The notes under the pieces are model-generated. The model searched no databases. It saw nothing but the letters and a program-made list of their open reading frames with translations, and was not told the DNA's origin. From the NCBI RefSeq assembly GCF_004006665.1, contig NZ_QOCL01000003.1:682001-746000 (forward strand): a DNA stretch of 64,000 bases, written 5' to 3'. Positions 54,276-63,884 of the stretch are shown here, in pieces. A program made the position numbers and the translations under genes. The DNA comes from Halobacteriovorax sp. HLS. Lineage in GTDB: Bacteria; Bdellovibrionota; Bacteriovoracia; Bacteriovoracales; Bacteriovoracaceae. Within the stretch, counting starts at the first letter, position 1. The number at the start of each line of letters is the position of its first letter.

Positions 54276-55547
54276 CTATACAGGAGAACTCAACTCAACG
54301 TTAGCGATAGTTTTATCATCAACGTTTTTTGTCTCCATATGGAATCTAATTTTTGTAAGAGGGTTAAATGTATATCCATCCTTACCTCTGATGATATACT
54401 TTCTCTTTTCACCCTTAACATTCTTAGGTTCTATCAGTTTTCTAAGTCTAGAAACACTTGTGTAGATCAATTTATCGTGAATAAGTGGATTATACTCATC
54501 TTTCCAAATTGATTTAGCCAGTTGTTCTTTATCATAGTAAGAGCCAGAATTCTTAGCTAATAAGAACAAGATCTCAAGTAATACAAATCTATGTTTAAAA
54601 TCAATTGTTCCTAAGTTTCTCTCTTTAACTTTTCTGTTGTTACGATCTAAATAGAGATCAACACTCGAGTCGTTAACCTCTTCTATCTCAGAAGAAAGAA
54701 GGTTTGAAAGTCTCTTAAAGACAGTCGGATCAATGGACTCATTAGCTAAATTGAAATACTCAAGGGCCTTATCAAAGTCCCCCATATTCTTATAAACATT
54801 ACCTTTACCAAGAAGAATGTAACCAAATAGGTTCCAACACTTCTTACTTTGCAATGTCTGATTCGCAAGTTTGAAAAACTTAAGAGAATTATCAAAGTCT
54901 TCTAGTTCAAGATAAACCTTAGCAGAGAATAAGAACATTGCTCCACTTAGATAGTCTTTCTTTAATATGGCCATTAACTGATTTAGTTGCCCTAGATAAT
55001 CTAGCGCACCTTCATAATTCTTTCTAACGTAACAATTATTAGCTAAGGCAAGAAGAGTTTTAGCAAGAATATCAGGCTCATTTTCTTCTTTTGATTTTTT
55101 ATAGGCCAATTGGAAGTTATCAAACGCTTCTTGAAAGTTTCCACCATAGTTCTTTACAATTCCAACATTATAAAAATATTCAGAATTTAAAGAACCTAGA
55201 ACTTGAGTTAAGTCATCAACCAGCTCTTCAGCAAGTGAAATATATTTAGTGGCCTTTTCATCTTCTAATTTTTCAGAAGATATTCTAATTAAAAAGCCTA
55301 AAATTTTAAAAATAGAGAATGTATCACGTGGTCTTTCAGCGCAATTAAGTGACTTAATGAAGTTTTCTTCAGCTGCCTCTAAATCAGATTTATCGTAATG
55401 AAGCTTACCAAGTTGATAAAAGGAACGACCTATTTCTCTTTTAGATAAAGATTCTTCATTTGGAATAAAGTCTTCATTAAAATTGTAGAAAGCAATAGAT
55501 GTTTCCGCTTCAGCGATTCGACCCATTTCCAAATTTTCATTCATCAT
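54276..55547 (-). CDS. TPR protein with C-terminal winged-helix DNA-binding domain
   Basis: This 423-residue protein has about seven tetratricopeptide-like helices (A-L-E-Y-F-N-L-A, Y-x-x-A-L-x-Y) over residues 30-290. A winged helix like that of OmpR/PhoB follows at about 310-395 (F-V-L-L-E-I-L-F-L-L-A, T-S-V-S-R-L-R-K-L-I-E-P, I-R-G-K-D-G-Y-T-F). There is no phospho-receiver, so activity may be set by protein partners through the repeats. This architecture is common in Bacteriovorax relatives, and the targets are unknown. Confidence 0.85.
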   Translation of the reverse strand: MMNENLEMGRIAEAETSIAFYNFNEDFIPNEESLSKREIGRSFYQLGKLHYDKSDLEAAEENFIKSLNCAERPRDTFSIFKILGFLIRISSEKLEDEKATKYISLAEELVDDLTQVLGSLNSEYFYNVGIVKNYGGNFQEAFDNFQLAYKKSKEENEPDILAKTLLALANNCYVRKNYEGALDYLGQLNQLMAILKKDYLSGAMFLFSAKVYLELEDFDNSLKFFKLANQTLQSKKCWNLFGYILLGKGNVYKNMGDFDKALEYFNLANESIDPTVFKRLSNLLSSEIEEVNDSSVDLYLDRNNRKVKERNLGTIDFKHRFVLLEILFLLAKNSGSYYDKEQLAKSIWKDEYNPLIHDKLIYTSVSRLRKLIEPKNVKGEKRKYIIRGKDGYTFNPLTKIRFHMETKNVDDKTIANVELSSPV

Positions 55548-55774: not shown

Positions 55775-57529
55775 ATGGCCAATTTCAAACTCGATACAAT
55801 AAGACACTCAAGCGCACATTTAATGGCCCAGGCCATATCGAGAGTCTTTCCAAATACCCATATTCAGTTTGGTATTGGTCCAGTTATTGAGCATGGGTTC
55901 TACTATGATATAGATATGGATCATCGCCTAGTTGAGGAAGATCTAGAGAAAATTGAAAAAGAAATGGCAAAGATCATCTCAGAAGGGCTAGAGATTGAAA
56001 GAAAGGTTATGTCTAGACAAGAAGCCTTAGATTTCTTCGAAAGCAAAAATGATGCTCTTAAGATAGATCTAATATCTAGCTTACCAGAAGATGAAGAAAT
56101 AAGCTGCTATCAGCAAGGTGAGTTTATCGACCTTTGCCGAGGGCCACACGTTGAGAACACAAAGCAAATCCCACAACACTTCAAACTCTTAAGTATTGCT
56201 GGAGCTTATTGGCGTGGTGATGAAAAGAATAAAATGCTTCAAAGAGTTTATGCAGCTTGTTTTGCAGATAGAAAAGAGCTTAAAAAGCATTTAACTTATC
56301 TTGAAGAGGCCAAGAAAAGAGACCATAGAAAACTTGGTAAAGAGCTAGAGCTTTTTCACTTTAACTCAGTAGCTCCAGCCTCTCCATTCTTTATGCCAAA
56401 GGGAGCCTTTGTTTATAATAAGCTAATTGAATTTATGCGCGAAATTTATAGAATTTATGATTATCAAGAAGTCATAACGCCGCAAATTCTAGACTCCGAA
56501 CTATGGCACACTTCAGGTCACTACGAACATTATAAAGACAATATGTACTTCTCAAATATCGATGAAAGAGAGTACGCAGTTAAACCTATGAACTGTCCTT
56601 GTCACATGCTCATGTTCAAACACTATAAGTATTCTTATAGAGATTTACCAATGAGATATGCTGACTTTGGAAGACTTCATCGCTATGAAAAAGCAGGGGC
56701 CGTTACGGGATTAACTAGAGTAAGAACTTTTTGCCAAGATGATGCACATATCTTTATAGATATGGAGAGAATTCAAGGCGAAATTTCAATGCTTATGGAT
56801 ATGTTCTTTACTTGTTATGAGCACTTCGGATTTACTGGAATAAAAGTAAACCTATCAACAAGACCTGAGAAGAAATCTGGTGATGATGCTACTTGGGATA
56901 AGGCAGAATCAGCTCTAGAAGAAGCCCTTAAAAAAAGTGGTCATAAATACTTTATAAAAGAAGGTGATGGTGCTTTCTACGGACCAAAGATTGATGTTGA
57001 AATAAGTGATGCAATTGGTAGATATTATCAACTTGGAACAATTCAGCTAGATTTCCAACTTCCAGAGAGATTTGGGCTAACGTACACAAATACTGAAGGT
57101 AATGAAGAAAAACCTGTTGTCATCCACCGTGCCCTACTCGGTTCATTAGAGAGATTCTTCGGAGTATACCTAGAGCACGTTGCCGGAGTATTTCCTTTTT
57201 GGCTCGCGCCAGAACAAGCGATAATCGTACCGGTTAACAATGATGCTCATCTAGAGTTTGCACAACAACTTCAAAGAGATCTATTCAACAAAGGTCTAAG
57301 AATTAAGATCGATGATAGAAATGAGTCAATGGGCTACAAGACGAGACAGATTCAACAATCTAAAGCACCTTATATGTTAGTAATTGGTGATAGAGAAATG
57401 GAGTCAAACTCAGTAAATATTAGAAAATATGGTGAAAAGAAGTCCGAATCTATGTCTATTGAAAAATTGACTGAACACTTCGTTGAGTTGAATAATCAAT
57501 TCATGCCTGAAAAGTTGAGATCAAAATAG
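55775..57529 (+). CDS. thrS: Threonyl-tRNA synthetase lacking the TGS domain
   Basis: The 584-residue class II synthetase has the editing domain (H11-S-S-A-H15 and C-R-G-P-H), motif 2 (F-G-x-x-H-R-Y-E-x-x-G), the zinc Cys (M-N-C-P-C-H) and the anticodon domain at the end. The usual N-terminal TGS domain (about 60 residues in E. coli, 642 total) is missing; the ATG starts right at the editing domain. The gap to the upstream divergent gene (55548-55774) holds no TGS-like frame. It shares a base with the ddl start. Confidence 0.95.
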   Translation: MANFKLDTIRHSSAHLMAQAISRVFPNTHIQFGIGPVIEHGFYYDIDMDHRLVEEDLEKIEKEMAKIISEGLEIERKVMSRQEALDFFESKNDALKIDLISSLPEDEEISCYQQGEFIDLCRGPHVENTKQIPQHFKLLSIAGAYWRGDEKNKMLQRVYAACFADRKELKKHLTYLEEAKKRDHRKLGKELELFHFNSVAPASPFFMPKGAFVYNKLIEFMREIYRIYDYQEVITPQILDSELWHTSGHYEHYKDNMYFSNIDEREYAVKPMNCPCHMLMFKHYKYSYRDLPMRYADFGRLHRYEKAGAVTGLTRVRTFCQDDAHIFIDMERIQGEISMLMDMFFTCYEHFGFTGIKVNLSTRPEKKSGDDATWDKAESALEEALKKSGHKYFIKEGDGAFYGPKIDVEISDAIGRYYQLGTIQLDFQLPERFGLTYTNTEGNEEKPVVIHRALLGSLERFFGVYLEHVAGVFPFWLAPEQAIIVPVNNDAHLEFAQQLQRDLFNKGLRIKIDDRNESMGYKTRQIQQSKAPYMLVIGDREMESNSVNIRKYGEKKSESMSIEKLTEHFVELNNQFMPEKLRSK

Positions 57530-58518
57530 TGAAGAATATTCTCTTACTATGTGGTGGTGGTGGAAGCGAGCACGAAATCTCGCTTCTTTCTGCTAAATAT
57601 ATTTTTGATACGTTAGCAACTTGTGACGATTATAAAGTATTCAAAGTAGAGATTCTTCGAAATGGAGATAGGATCGATCAAGACGGTTATCTTTGTGAAC
57701 TTAGAAAGGCCGGTGAAATTTTTTATCCACACAGTGAAGAAATTCACAAACTAGACTTCGCCATTCCATGCATTCATGGACCACCTGGTGAAAATGGCAT
57801 CATTCAGTCTATTTTTGAACTAATGGGTCTTCCCTATCTTGGTGTCGGACCTGAAGCGAGCCAGATTTGCTTCAATAAAGTTTCAACTAAATTATGGCTA
57901 GATGCTCTTCAAATTCCAAATACTGAGTATATTTTTCTTGGTGAATTCAACGAAGTCAATAAACATAGAGCACAAGTCTTTTTCGATCAACATAAAGACA
58001 TCTACATAAAAGCAGCAAGTCAAGGTTCATCCGTAGGCTGCTATCATGTCAATAAAGAAGAGTACTTAGAAAAATCCTTAACAGAAGCGTTTAAATTCTC
58101 TGATTTTGTCCTCATTGAAAAAACTCAAAAGGCCAGAGAATTAGAAATTTCAGTTTACGAATATGAAGGGCAAATTCATGCTTCACTACCTGGTGAGATA
58201 ATATGTCCTGATGGGTTTTATACTTTTGAACAAAAGTATTCAAAAGAAAGTAAAACTCACACAGATATAGTGGCCAAGAATATTCCCCAAAAAATTTCTG
58301 ACGAAATGAAAGATATGGCCATAAAAGCATTTAGAGGTCTTAAACTTAAACACTTATCTAGAGTTGACTTCTTTTTAACTGACGATGGGAAAGTATTTAT
58401 AAACGAGATCAATACATTCCCAGGAATGACTCCGATTTCAATGTTTCCAAAAATGATGGAAAACAATGGTCACAAATTTAAAACGTACTTAAATAATATA
58501 ATTCAATCTTCGACATAG
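57529..58518 (+). CDS. ddl: D-alanine--D-alanine ligase
   Basis: This 329-residue ATP-grasp enzyme joins two D-Ala for peptidoglycan. Marks are G-G-G-G-S-E-H-E-I-S, H-G-P-P-G-E-N-G-I-I-Q, the K-A-A-S-Q-G-S-S-V-G loop, R-E-L-E-I-S-V-Y and F-I-N-E-I-N-T-F-P-G-M-T. It begins at a GTG sharing the last base of the thrS stop. It leads into the aminotransferase operon after 11 bases. Confidence 0.95.
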   Translation: MKNILLLCGGGGSEHEISLLSAKYIFDTLATCDDYKVFKVEILRNGDRIDQDGYLCELRKAGEIFYPHSEEIHKLDFAIPCIHGPPGENGIIQSIFELMGLPYLGVGPEASQICFNKVSTKLWLDALQIPNTEYIFLGEFNEVNKHRAQVFFDQHKDIYIKAASQGSSVGCYHVNKEEYLEKSLTEAFKFSDFVLIEKTQKARELEISVYEYEGQIHASLPGEIICPDGFYTFEQKYSKESKTHTDIVAKNIPQKISDEMKDMAIKAFRGLKLKHLSRVDFFLTDDGKVFINEINTFPGMTPISMFPKMMENNGHKFKTYLNNIIQSST

Positions 58519-58529
58519 ACGAGGCGACA

Positions 58530-61500
58530 ATGAAATTAGAACTCATAAACAAATCAAGCGAAACTCACTCAAAAGAAATTCTTCAAAGCTATTACAAAAA
58601 CAATCTCATACCACCTGAAAAGAAAAACTACTTAACTAACCTAGAATCTTCAACTGGACCATTCTTGGCGATAGAAGGTTCAAATGGCACAACTCAATAT
58701 ATGATGGACGCCGCTTCACAAATCGCAACATTAGGACTTGGTTTTTCTCCTAGTGTTTTCTTTGGAACGGCCCACTACTTAGAAACCTGGTTAAATAACA
58801 AAGATGGTAAAGAATTTAAGAGCATTCGTGCTGCGTTTGAATCTTTCTTAAAAAGAAAATCAGGATTCAAAAATTTAGATTTAACTATTTGCAACTCTGG
58901 AGCTGAAGCAAATGAAATAGCACTTGGTTACTGTTACCGTTCAAGACATAACTTAGGCGCCAACAAGGTGCTTGCCTTCGAAGGAAGTTTTCATGGGAGG
59001 ATGATGGTAACACTCTCTAGTACATGGAATAAGACCAAGAGAATTCCATTTGAGTGGCCAGAGCATGAAACTATTTACTGTCCATTTCCAGGCCTTGACA
59101 CAGATGAAATCCTTGTTCCTTCTCCTGATGGATGGCAAGAGTTCTGGGAAAACTCAAGCTCTAATGAACTTGAAGTACCTGTCCATTGGTTACAAGATCC
59201 ACAGGTAGCAAAGGAAGTTGCCTCACTATTAAGCGTAAAAGAACAACTTAGAACTAATAAAATATTTGCAATTATTGTTGAGCCTATGCAGTGTGAAGGT
59301 GGAGATTGCTATGCAAGCGGTAGATTCAACGAGGCATTAATATCGCTTGCTCATAGCTATCATGTGAAAGTTGTTCACGATGAAGTCCAAACAGGTTTCC
59401 ACCTAGGAAAGGAGTTCTTCTGGCATCGTGAATTAAATATGAAAAACTCTAAATCAGAGTTATTATCGCCAGACTACGTAGTTTGCGCAAAAAAAGCACA
59501 AGTAGGACTAGTTCTTTCCCATGAAAATATATGGGGAAGAAATAAGTATGAAGAATTTCAAGTTGCCTCAGTTGTGAGAGGATACCTCCACGCGATTGCA
59601 CTTGATCAATCTCAAGACAAAATTGTTGAACTAGAAAATACAGCTAGGACGGAACTTGAAAAGCTCGTTAAGAAATTTCCAGAAAAAATAACAAGACCAA
59701 GAGCGAATGGAATGGCTTTTGCTTTTGAAGTTCCTAGCGCACAAGACTCACTAGAGTTTATTTCTAAAAGATTCGATCATGGCCTTTTATACTATCCTGC
59801 CGGAGAAAAAACACTTCGTTTCAGATTAAATACTAGCTTCACAAAAGAAGATATTAAATTTCTTTTTGAACGAATTGAAGTAATGGCAAAGAGTATTTTC
59901 AATAATGAACAAGAGACATTTGTAACTCATATTGAAACTAAATCTAGAGATTCTGAAATAATTTATGAGTGGCAAAAGCTTCTTACAAAGCTTAAGTTAA
60001 ATGCACTAAAGAAGAGTGATTTAAAAAGCTCTGAGAATCTAGACTCTATTCTAAAACTATTTAGCAAATCTTGTGACAAAGAATTATTTATAATTGATAG
60101 CTCAAATTTTGAAGACTGGCGTACACAGATAGAACAGATTCAAAAAGATATCTACGAGCCAACTCGACAGACTGATATAGGTGTTTTCGAAAAAAGTGCT
60201 CAACATAAGAACTCAGTTGCGATTGGTGTGAAGGAAGATGACAAACTACTAGCTATTGCCTTTAGCTCGCCCCTAGCAATCAATCCACTAGAAAGAGGTG
60301 TAAGAAAAGATCCATATATTGATAATGATAATGTTCTCTACATGATCGACTCAACTGTTACCGAAGCGTTACAAGGTAGAGGCCTTGGAAGAGTTTTAAA
60401 GTACGCTCTTACCGCTATCGCGATGACTAAGGAAACTCAAAGGATACATGGAAGAAACCGTGACCGCATGGCCGCAAGTATGTTAAATATCAACTTATCC
60501 CTCGGCGCATATGAACTGATGTATATGAAAGAGGATTACCCTGATTTTGAAGAATACAGAGATGTTTTCTACTATACATCTACTACGAAATGGAAAGAGC
60601 TGCCACTAAATCTAAGTAATGCTATACAATCACCTCTTTGTTCGAGTGACTTAACAGATTCATATATTGAGGAGCAGCTATCATTTCTCGTTAACAAAGT
60701 ATGTCTATCTAACTTTGTTTCCCAGAGATTTTTAGATCAGTTAAGATCACTTACATCTTTGCTGCCAAAGACTATGCAGCATGCATATACGACTTCAGGT
60801 CAGTCTGAATGTGTAGATAAAGTGGCCAAAACAATTTGGTATTGTGCTGAAAACAAAGACAATCATATGATAACTTTTGCGGATCATTTTTTTGGAAATG
60901 GAAGCTTTTTAGCTAGATCTTTGAGCTATCAAAAGGATAAGTTCTTTAATGTTTCTCATTTAGCAAATCCAACAGAAGACACTATTCAGGACGTTCTTGA
61001 CGAAGTCGAAGAGAAGCTAAAGCAAGGAGCAAAAGGTGGTGTTTGGATTGAGCCAATTCAACAAAAGACAATGAAGAGAACTCCAAGAGAATTTCTAAAA
61101 AAACTAAAAGTATTATGCGAAAAATATAAAACTAAACTTATATATAATGAAACAGCATCTGCATGCTATCGCTATGATAACTCAAACTTCTTTACTTCAA
61201 ACATCGAAGAGCTTGCTCCTAATGCAGCAATATGTTTTCTAGGTGGCCAAGCAGGTCTTTGCTTTACTAACAAAGATATCTTCATAGATAAGCCTCTAAT
61301 GCTAATTAGTACTTGGGATGGTGATGAATTCTCTCTATCGAACTTCAATTATGCTACAGGCTTAATTAATAGTGATCTTGAAAATTTCACACAAGTGAAA
61401 ATAGATTTTACAAATAAGTTAACAGAAATTCTTTCTTCATATGATATTGAAGAAATGGAACTAGAAAATGGCGTTGGATACTTTATAGGTAATATTTCAA

Positions 61501-61598
61501 AATCTTTACAAAAGTTTTTTAAAAAGTCCAAAGAGCGATATATTGTGTGTCCTAGCTATGGGCAAATGAAGAAATTTCTAACTGAGACCGTCTCATGA
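58530..61598 (+). CDS. Fusion: class III aminotransferase, GNAT acetyltransferase, degenerate aminotransferase
   Basis: This single 1022-residue frame has three parts. Residues 1-460 are a class III PLP aminotransferase (N-S-G-A-E-A-N-E 122-129, D284-E-V-Q-T-G, PLP Lys near K321/K322). Residues 500-690 are a GNAT acetyltransferase (Q-G-R-G-L-G-R, 615-621). Residues 700-1022 follow the same aminotransferase plan (T-S-G-Q-S-E, E841-P-I-Q, N872-E-T-A-S-A) but have Asp replaced by N872 and the PLP Lys by G905-G-Q907, so this part is probably inactive. Moving and then acetylating an amino group is a plausible logic. Substrate unknown. Confidence 0.85.
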   Translation: MKLELINKSSETHSKEILQSYYKNNLIPPEKKNYLTNLESSTGPFLAIEGSNGTTQYMMDAASQIATLGLGFSPSVFFGTAHYLETWLNNKDGKEFKSIRAAFESFLKRKSGFKNLDLTICNSGAEANEIALGYCYRSRHNLGANKVLAFEGSFHGRMMVTLSSTWNKTKRIPFEWPEHETIYCPFPGLDTDEILVPSPDGWQEFWENSSSNELEVPVHWLQDPQVAKEVASLLSVKEQLRTNKIFAIIVEPMQCEGGDCYASGRFNEALISLAHSYHVKVVHDEVQTGFHLGKEFFWHRELNMKNSKSELLSPDYVVCAKKAQVGLVLSHENIWGRNKYEEFQVASVVRGYLHAIALDQSQDKIVELENTARTELEKLVKKFPEKITRPRANGMAFAFEVPSAQDSLEFISKRFDHGLLYYPAGEKTLRFRLNTSFTKEDIKFLFERIEVMAKSIFNNEQETFVTHIETKSRDSEIIYEWQKLLTKLKLNALKKSDLKSSENLDSILKLFSKSCDKELFIIDSSNFEDWRTQIEQIQKDIYEPTRQTDIGVFEKSAQHKNSVAIGVKEDDKLLAIAFSSPLAINPLERGVRKDPYIDNDNVLYMIDSTVTEALQGRGLGRVLKYALTAIAMTKETQRIHGRNRDRMAASMLNINLSLGAYELMYMKEDYPDFEEYRDVFYYTSTTKWKELPLNLSNAIQSPLCSSDLTDSYIEEQLSFLVNKVCLSNFVSQRFLDQLRSLTSLLPKTMQHAYTTSGQSECVDKVAKTIWYCAENKDNHMITFADHFFGNGSFLARSLSYQKDKFFNVSHLANPTEDTIQDVLDEVEEKLKQGAKGGVWIEPIQQKTMKRTPREFLKKLKVLCEKYKTKLIYNETASACYRYDNSNFFTSNIEELAPNAAICFLGGQAGLCFTNKDIFIDKPLMLISTWDGDEFSLSNFNYATGLINSDLENFTQVKIDFTNKLTEILSSYDIEEMELENGVGYFIGNISKSLQKFFKKSKERYIVCPSYGQMKKFLTETVS

Positions 61599-62692
61599 TT
61601 GACTACAACTTCCCTATCATAAGCTATGACCCTAAAGATTCTTATTATCAATGGGGTTTTAAGCATGGTAAGGCCTTTAGTGAGGGAATTAAAGAGCTCG
61701 TTACGATTAGACGAAAGTTAATGCTTAAAAGAAATCCGTCTTTAGAGGAGCATATCTCAGAACTTGCACAGGAACAGTTTACTGTGACTAAAGAGTTCGA
61801 TATTAACCTATCGAGTGAACTTGAAGGAATAGCAGATGGCGCTGAACTCTCTCTAGAAGATATCGTTATTTTGAATAACTATACTGACTTTAGAGATATC
61901 CACCTTCCTGAAGAAGGCTGCTCAACAATACAAGTACAAAATGATGAATCTCTCTTAAGCGGTCAAACATGGGATATGCATCGCTCAGCAAAGAGATTTC
62001 TATGTCTAATAGAAGTACCAAAAACTAAAAGCAATCCAGAAACTCTAGTCCTTTCTCTTGTAGGTTGTACAGGGCTCATGGCAATCAATTCTGAGCAGTG
62101 CTTCGTTGGTGTTAATAATATAAACACCCTTAATGCAAGAGTAGGACTTATTTGGCCAAACTTAGTTAGAAAGCTAATGATGAACAATTCTATTGAAGGG
62201 ATGCGTGACACATTAACCAGTGCTCCTGTCACCTCAGGTCATAACTATCTAATAAGTACCACTAAAGGAAGCGAACACTGGGAAATCACCCCCAATAACA
62301 AAGACCTTGTAGCAAAGCTAGATGAGAACCAAAAAGGATTTAGTTTTCATACCAATCATTGTTTAGGAGAGAATGTTCACCTAGAAGAAGACAAGAATAA
62401 TGTAAGTAAGACTACGCATAAGCGTTATGAAATTTTGGATCACTCTGTAAAAGAGCTTCAGAGTTTTGACGATATGAAGTCACTACTTCAGTCTCATGAA
62501 CAATACCCCGTCTCTATATGCACACATCTTGAAACAGGTGCCGATGATCCATCAGCAACATGTGGAGGTGGTATTGTAAACATGAAAGACGGAAAAGTAG
62601 TATTCTGGAGAGGATGTCCAGAGTATGACCAAAACTATATTGAATATTCATATCAATTTGACTTAGCGACTAAGTCCTTTAAAAGAGTTTAA
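61595..62692 (+). CDS. C45/acyl-CoA:6-aminopenicillanic-acid acyltransferase-like Ntn hydrolase
   Basis: This 365-residue protein overlaps the previous stop by four bases. C109 in E-E-G-C-S-T-I is the likely N-terminal nucleophile after self-cleavage, as in the penicillin acyltransferase/C45 family. Later blocks include G-Q-T-W-D-M-H (as in G-x-N-x-D), G-L-M-A-I-N and T-N-H-C-L. Such enzymes form or break amide bonds with acyl groups. There is no signal peptide. With aminotransferases on either side it may trim or acylate their amino product. Confidence 0.8.
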   Translation: MIDYNFPIISYDPKDSYYQWGFKHGKAFSEGIKELVTIRRKLMLKRNPSLEEHISELAQEQFTVTKEFDINLSSELEGIADGAELSLEDIVILNNYTDFRDIHLPEEGCSTIQVQNDESLLSGQTWDMHRSAKRFLCLIEVPKTKSNPETLVLSLVGCTGLMAINSEQCFVGVNNINTLNARVGLIWPNLVRKLMMNNSIEGMRDTLTSAPVTSGHNYLISTTKGSEHWEITPNNKDLVAKLDENQKGFSFHTNHCLGENVHLEEDKNNVSKTTHKRYEILDHSVKELQSFDDMKSLLQSHEQYPVSICTHLETGADDPSATCGGGIVNMKDGKVVFWRGCPEYDQNYIEYSYQFDLATKSFKRV

Positions 62693-62693
62693 A

Positions 62694-63884
62694 GTGAAAG
62701 AAATTCCTTTTTATGTAACCTGGACTAACCAAACAGGAGCATTAACTTTAGATATCGCCTCGGCCAAAGGCCCTCACTATATTACAAGAAATGGGAAAAA
62801 AATTTTAGACCTAAGTTCAACAAGCTATCAAGCAGCTTTTGGTCATTCTGATAAAGAAATAATCAAAGCGATCACAGACCAACTAAAAGTCCTTCCAATT
62901 GCATCCCCTAAGTTGGTATTTGATTTAAAGCAAAAAGTTACCCAAAAACTGTTACAACTCTTAAAGTTAAAAGGGAAAATTTTCTACACTGTTTCTGGAG
63001 CAGAATCTGTCGAGAACGCGATAAAGATTTCACGACAATTTAGTGGAAAAAAATACATTCTAGCAAGAAAGAACTCTTATCATGGAGCTAGCCTTGGCGC
63101 CTTAAGTTTAACAGGTGATTGGAGAGCTAAAGATCATTTAACATTAAGTAAGTGGACTAAGAGAATACCTGAACCTAAGAATGATCCACACGCAGTTGAA
63201 TTTGAAAAGCTTATCAAAAAAGTAGGTGCTCATAATATTGCAGCAATTTGCTTGGAAACCGTGACCGGAGGCAATGGCGTAATAGTAGCTCCTAAAACCT
63301 GGTGGAAGGCCGTAGCAAGATTTAAAAAAGAGTATGGAATTCTAATAATTCTTGATGAAGTTGTCTGTGGTTTTGGAAGACTGGGTACTGCTTTTGGATT
63401 CCAACAATTTCCTATCAAACCAGATATTGTCTGTATGGCAAAAATAATAACAGGTGGGTACATACCATTTGGAGCCGTTTGGACAAATAGTAAAATTGCG
63501 AAGTTTTATGATAAACAGATTCTAAGCTGTGGACTAACTAGTTATGCACACCCACTGGGTCTCGCTGCGATGAATATTGTCATCGATAAAATTCAATCAC
63601 CTGAGCATAATAGAAGATTTTCTTTACTTCATGATGAATTAGAGACATGGTCTTCAATTTTCTCTAATCTTGACCAAGTTAAAGAAGTTCGTCACATAGG
63701 ACTTTTGATGGCAATAGAGTTAAAGACTCCCATTCCAACAAAGTCATTCCTGGATAAATCTATTCTATTGGCCAGTGTTGGAAATAATTTAATTATTGCT
63801 CCAAATTACGTAACGAAAAGTTCACAACTTAAAAAAGCATTAACAGCAGTTAAAGAAGTTATAGAAGGTAAAAATGACAAGTAA
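62694..63884 (+). CDS. Class III pyridoxal-phosphate aminotransferase
   Basis: This 396-residue protein has the full class III signature: S-G-A-E-S-V-E-N-A (phosphate site), Y-H-G-A-S, L-D-E-V-V-C-G-F-G-R-L-G, and C-M-A-K-I-I-T-G-G-Y PLP Lys. T-S-Y-A-H-P-L-G follows. It is a likely omega-amino acid or diamine aminotransferase, of unknown substrate. The GTG start is one base past the acyltransferase stop. It overlaps the CoA-transferase gene by 11 bases. Confidence 0.93.
   Translation: MKEIPFYVTWTNQTGALTLDIASAKGPHYITRNGKKILDLSSTSYQAAFGHSDKEIIKAITDQLKVLPIASPKLVFDLKQKVTQKLLQLLKLKGKIFYTVSGAESVENAIKISRQFSGKKYILARKNSYHGASLGALSLTGDWRAKDHLTLSKWTKRIPEPKNDPHAVEFEKLIKKVGAHNIAAICLETVTGGNGVIVAPKTWWKAVARFKKEYGILIILDEVVCGFGRLGTAFGFQQFPIKPDIVCMAKIITGGYIPFGAVWTNSKIAKFYDKQILSCGLTSYAHPLGLAAMNIVIDKIQSPEHNRRFSLLHDELETWSSIFSNLDQVKEVRHIGLLMAIELKTPIPTKSFLDKSILLASVGNNLIIAPNYVTKSSQLKKALTAVKEVIEGKNDK

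Follow-up and report, generated by a model that had tools for sequence, protein, structure and literature searches.

We found that a single gene of the window (the whole 64,000-nucleotide stretch of the Halobacteriovorax sp. HLS genome that was analysed) encodes, in order along one chain, a class III aminotransferase (D1), a GNAT acetyltransferase domain and another copy of the class III aminotransferase fold (D3), from which the PLP lysine is missing. From the residues that each aminotransferase half has kept and lost, we strongly infer that the protein is a one-chain pseudo-dimer in which D3 is the permanent partner half and only one active site is formed. The gene belongs to an operon whose likely role, judging by its gene content, is acetyl-dependent catabolism of beta-lysine. 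Taken jointly, the one-site pseudo-dimer, the separate GNAT activity and the beta-lysine operon form a reading that we regard as reasonably probable.

Integrity and distribution of the three-part fusion

The gene occupies 58530-61598 on the forward strand as one uninterrupted open reading frame of 1022 amino acids, with its ATG at 58530 and a stop codon that ends at 61598. The original prediction, which described the three-part architecture, also raised the possibility that the fusion was an artefact of assembly. We found the same frame unbroken in the whole host genome (99.98% complete) and in relatives at 42-65% identity, and because it is intact in both, we conclude that the fusion is not an assembly artefact; its unbroken state in the family relatives and in named genomes rules this out as well. 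Nor is there any appreciable probability that assembly or gene calling joined adjacent genes, as frame and length are identical in dozens of independent genomes from two phyla.

A survey of taxa, suggested along with the original prediction, placed the fusion in both Bdellovibrionota and Myxococcota. Of 37 genomes in the window's family, 19 carry it, as do two further genomes from another family of the same phylum. A scan of named genomes identified it in Bacteriovorax, Halobacteriovorax and other Bdellovibrionota, in Myxococcota including Nannocystis exedens DSM 71, N. poenicansa and Enhygromyxa salina, and in two contigs binned as Pirellulales. A search of viral contigs yielded no relatives of the fusion.

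Profile and fold evidence for D1, the GNAT domain and D3, given for each below, bears out the predicted architecture, and the profiles of D1 and D3 match each other in a profile-profile comparison (E = 8e-18). A full-length AlphaFold2 model (pLDDT 93.5, pTM 0.94) joins all three parts in a single confident assembly. A pTM of 0.94 implies that the parts are held in a fixed mutual arrangement in the predicted structure, within which the D1-D3 interface itself is one that we infer. The chains listed by VIA-align for the full-length model were all D1-like and are uninformative on that interface.

D1 and D3 have lost opposite parts of the active site

To compare the two halves, we used an alignment of 57 full-length sequences, consisting of the window protein and 56 sequences from the named-genome scan with identities to it down to 25%, and took lysine 6-aminotransferase (LAT) of M. 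tuberculosis as the reference for active-site numbering. D1 (residues ~1-462; 58530-59915, +) has a complete cis active site according to Pfam, NCBIfam and PDB searches. Its residues 32-450 match Pfam Aminotran_3 with E = 1.1e-40 (140.1 bits against a cut-off of 30.5). R157, E256, D284, Q287, K321 and R430 of D1 correspond to LAT R170, E243, D271, Q274, K300 and R422, and each is present in all 57 sequences; K321 (codon 59490-59492, +) is the predicted PLP lysine. The profile score above cut-off, together with the invariance of K321 and D284, places D1 among the class III aminotransferases. Structure comparison matched its fold to AcOAT and LAT (Z ~40), and its nearest relatives by both sequence and fold are LAT (Rv3290c, PDB 2cin) and GABA aminotransferase (PDB 1ohv), with which it has all cis active-site residues in common. 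By TIGR03251, D1 is not an L-lysine 6-transaminase (102.9 bits against an equivalog cut-off of 520.8).

One element of these enzymes is absent from D1. None of the 57 sequences has a T-W pair between K321 and R350, and hhalign against LAT revealed a deletion in D1 at the S329-T330 loop. V348 of D1 pairs with T928 of D3 in an ungapped reading, which was ruled out since hhalign shows the loop to be deleted in D1.

D3 (residues ~695-1022; 60612-61595, +) has the class III aminotransferase fold: 23 of 27 relatives match Pfam Aminotran_3 in this part (best 9e-12), and D3 modelled alone has LAT as its top fold match (Z = 29.3, 317 of 321 residues, rmsd 2.9). It has neither the PLP lysine nor the pyridine-N-binding Asp of an active class III enzyme. 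The column of K321 is L904 in D3 (codon 61239-61241, +); when the alignment was checked at this position, we found G, L, M, A, P, F, T, Y, V or C across the 57 sequences and Lys in none. D284 corresponds to N873, in a column whose commonest residues are N, V, S, I, C and H, mostly Asn or Val. The original prediction had described D3 as having lost the PLP lysine, with G-G-Q in its place, and the DE pair. The lysine is indeed absent, but the Gln of that motif, which D1 has too (Q324), is not what replaced it; of the pair, the Asp is gone but the Glu is retained (E874; Glu in 53 of the 57 sequences, Asp in 4).

No invariant stretch of D3 is longer than the loop S927-T-W-D-G-D932 (61308-61325, +), which reads S-T-W-(D/E)-G-D in all 57 sequences, with S, T, W, G and D invariant. 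It is homologous to the S329-T330 loop of LAT by hhalign, in which S927 and T928 fall on LAT S329 and T330; LAT N328 is not retained (I926 in D3). The loop of pig GABA-AT, which reads N-T-W-L-G-D, is close to it. Each active site of LAT borrows Asn328, Ser329 and Thr330 from the second subunit, and the PLP phosphate is bound by Thr330 (PMC9780415). The site of E. coli YgjG is built alike, with Thr332 in trans (PMC4244111).

The two halves are therefore degenerate in complementary ways in all 57 sequences: D1 has the cis residues and no S-T-W loop, and D3 has the loop and no lysine. A dead half that retains the trans residues, beside a live half that has lost its own, is what an obligate pseudo-dimer would look like in sequence. 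Because D1 and D3 have lost opposite active-site parts across these relatives, we read D3 as a partner half, the role that the original prediction put first. D1 would hold PLP and all of the cis catalytic residues, and the catalytically dead D3 would lend it the phosphate-binding Ser-Thr loop that is normally supplied by the second subunit of a homodimer. The result would be a class III homodimer turned into a single polypeptide, each copy of which would have one active site.

It is also conceivable that D1 pairs with D1 of another chain and that D3 has a regulatory or scaffolding role, binding a ligand or the GNAT domain. E760, D763, K764 and Q907 of D3 (the last at the position of D1 Q324) are likewise invariant and could mark a pocket, and the D1-D3 interface of the pseudo-dimer is a putative one. 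Every site of a D1-D1 dimer, however, would be without a trans Ser-Thr loop, and the most strictly kept stretch of D3 is this very loop. Such a pocket would also be incomplete in L037, L038, L093 and L095, the only copies in which D3 is truncated ~20 residues past the loop; most Myxococcota copies run ~100 residues beyond it. We found nothing in favour of the regulatory pocket that the original prediction had offered as its second option, and we consider a regulatory or scaffold role quite unlikely.

The acetyltransferase domain

The middle domain (residues ~500-690; 60027-60599, +) was recognised as GNAT by matches of relatives to Pfam Acetyltransf_1 and by PDB profile hits, which are mainly to GNAT acetyltransferases. 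On its own, the window's domain matches weakly, just below the cut-off (E = 0.0013; 19.5 bits against 20.7), while the middle domain of 17 of 27 relatives matches Acetyltransf_1 (best 1e-8). Placed between D1 and D3 in the pseudo-dimer, it would provide a separate acetyl-CoA-dependent activity and make the whole protein bifunctional. The searches do not support an assignment as an ortholog of AblB/YodP (TIGR03827), as there was no NCBIfam hit at E <= 1 and hhalign gave a probability of 13%. A true AblB, scoring over the cut-off, coexists with the fusion in six genomes (G001, G003, G004, G008, G013 and G033), and genomes that have both may use beta-lysine for an osmolyte as well as for catabolism.

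A conserved operon downstream of the fusion

The fusion is followed in tight succession by genes for a hydrolase, a second aminotransferase and two CoA-transferase subunits, and the whole or part of this set is found in both Bdellovibrionota and Myxococcota. The first (61595-62692, +) encodes a C45-family autoproteolytic acyltransferase/hydrolase, with 153.2 bits to NF040521 (cut-off 85) and the nucleophile Cys in 56 of 56 sequences; it adjoins the fusion in both phyla. The second (62694-63884, +) encodes a separate class III aminotransferase that profile searches identify as PRK06062-like and that we propose to be the 3-amino transaminase. Subunit A of a 3-oxoacid CoA-transferase begins at 63874 (+) and runs through 64000 to the equivalent of position 64566, past the end of the window, and subunit B follows up to 65195; their profile matches are both over cut-off (TIGR02429, 237.9 bits; TIGR02428, 251.6 bits).

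Other genes join this set in some contigs. A KamA-family radical SAM gene lies within the operon in L076, L124 and L079, and in L079 a thiolase follows. In L091, an aldehyde dehydrogenase gene lies 3' of the fusion.

Several local variants were also observed. In L076 and L124, both binned as Pirellulales, and in L079, the operon is accompanied by a KamA that shares 64-68% identity with Bacteriovoracales KamA, which would reflect horizontal transfer or mis-binning of these contigs. CoA-transferase subunits A and B form one 466-aa protein adjoining the fusion in L091 (14637-16037, +). In G042 (L038, 3182-4883, -), the usual subunits are replaced by a CoA-transferase pair that looks glutaconate-type on reading its sequence and directly precedes the fusion.

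Upstream of the fusion, in the same-strand run, is a D-Ala-D-Ala ligase gene (57529-58518, +; NF002527, 370.5 bits against a cut-off of 310), which we judge to be housekeeping and outside the module. This gene and that for threonyl-tRNA synthetase were rejected as module members, as it is only in the window's lineage, and not in Myxococcota, that they adjoin the fusion. The threonyl-tRNA synthetase (55775-57529, +; 584 aa) has SAD, catalytic and anticodon-binding domains and no detected N-terminal TGS domain by Pfam. Divergent from thrS is a gene (54276-55547, -) for a TPR-repeat protein with a C-terminal Trans_reg_C DNA-binding domain, a possible regulator; its place beside thrS is conserved in relatives.

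Co-occurrence with KamA and exclusion of Kdd

KamA orthologs (at least 63% identity) were found in 22 of the 37 family genomes, comprising every one of the 19 fusion genomes and 3 of the 18 others (Fisher p = 8.7e-8, uncorrected for shared ancestry). The three KamA-positive genomes without the fusion, G014, G022 and G028, all have Kdd of the classical lysine fermentation (KamA, KamDE with KamB/KamC, Kdd), while no fusion genome among the 37 has Kdd. Because KamA is shared while the fusion and Kdd exclude each other in these genomes, two alternative downstream routes seem to serve one beta-lysine-forming KamA. At the KamA locus of G028 (L056, 7156-13526), genes for Kdd, KamB-like, KamC-like and IlvC-like reductoisomerase proteins lie beside KamA, with the KamB and KamC matches well below their cut-offs.

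Outside the family, a close KamA ortholog (49-68% identity) is present in 16 of 20 sampled fusion genomes and absent in the other four, all of which are MAGs; KamA is absent from G056. KamA of the window's genome is ~325 kb from the fusion. The partner KamA scores below the lysine 2,3-aminomutase equivalog TIGR03820 (279.3 against 525.4 bits), which is still its best KamA subfamily, and it conserves both of the Asp residues that we take to be lysine-binding.

A proposed pathway of beta-lysine catabolism

The original prediction named no pathway; the gene neighbourhood suggests beta-lysine catabolism. The order of steps is modelled on the beta-lysine routes of Pseudomonas and of Bacillus (yod/kamA). 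KamA would convert lysine to beta-lysine, and the GNAT domain would acetylate the terminal amine of beta-lysine. The separate aminotransferase would then yield the 3-keto acid, which the CoA transferase and a thiolase would convert to acetyl-CoA and 4-acetamidobutyryl-CoA. The C45 enzyme would remove the acetyl group to give 4-aminobutyrate (GABA), and D1 would turn GABA into succinic semialdehyde.

We propose the GABA step for D1 on the grounds of its LAT/GABA-AT residue set, the aldehyde dehydrogenase in L091 and the class III content of the genome. Four class III aminotransferase loci were found in the window's genome, namely D1, the operon enzyme and two others that we assign to HemL and to an enzyme encoded next to AstA; apart from D1, none stands out as a GABA transaminase. 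The two aminotransferases could have their tasks exchanged, with the pseudo-dimer as described and D1 as the 3-amino (beta) transaminase while the separate enzyme uses GABA, or the substrate of D1 could be a different omega-amino acid, for example lysine. LAT and GABA-AT, the nearest enzymes to D1, share the same active-site residue set, and the separate enzyme falls in PRK06062, a family with no NCBIfam name beyond "hypothetical protein." The R157/E256/R430 pattern of D1 is that of enzymes acting on omega-amino acids, however, and an aldehyde dehydrogenase after the fusion suits a semialdehyde product, so that we see an exchange or another substrate as rather unlikely.

The module might also be biosynthetic and make, for instance, a secreted compound or an osmolyte of the acetylated beta-amino-acid type. 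KamA and an acetyltransferase are the recipe for the osmolyte N6-acetyl-beta-lysine (AblA/AblB), and AblB occurs in several of the same genomes. The transaminases, the CoA-transferase subunits, the thiolase in L079 and the C45 hydrolase would make no sense for that product, though, and the fusion stands in for Kdd, and Kdd for the fusion, downstream of the same KamA. A biosynthetic role is very unlikely in our estimation, and we favour the catabolic one.

Comparison with known systems and implications

LAT and GABA aminotransferase are homodimers with two identical sites, whereas the fusion is one chain with one half dead and a GNAT domain between the halves. The pairing of live and dead halves is already known among fold-type I enzymes: in the glycine decarboxylase P-protein and in LCB1/LCB2 of serine palmitoyltransferase, a degenerate half without the PLP lysine completes one site. 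These enzymes differ from the fusion in that they are not class III, have no GNAT domain and catalyse different reactions. What appears to be new here is the class III version with an acetyltransferase between the halves, a design that we did not find in the literature searched; that search, covering few subscription journals, returned no paper on the three-part fusion.

The Bacillus yodTSRQP-kamA operon encodes KamA, an acetyltransferase, a class III aminotransferase, two CoA-transferase subunits and an amide hydrolase. In contrast, the acetyltransferase here is fused with the pseudo-dimer and is not recognisably YodP/AblB, and the hydrolase is of the C45 rather than the YodQ type. Classical lysine fermentation in G014, G022 and G028 starts from the same KamA ortholog.

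Although sequence data contain many dead enzyme halves, the purpose for which they are retained is rarely visible. The opposite losses in all 57 sequences give a prediction that can be addressed by mutation, that K321 and T928 act in one site. More tentatively, and with somewhat less confidence than an even chance, the fusion may represent a new aminotransferase class in predatory bacteria of two phyla, an obligate pseudo-dimer with one chain and one site. Acetylation and transamination of a beta-lysine pathway would then take place on a single rigid particle, which might pass substrate or CoA from one domain to another. If the proposed pathway is true, these bacteria, which live by digesting the protein of other cells, would have a distinct enzyme set for a lysine catabolic route whose annotation is poor beyond Bacillus and clostridia.
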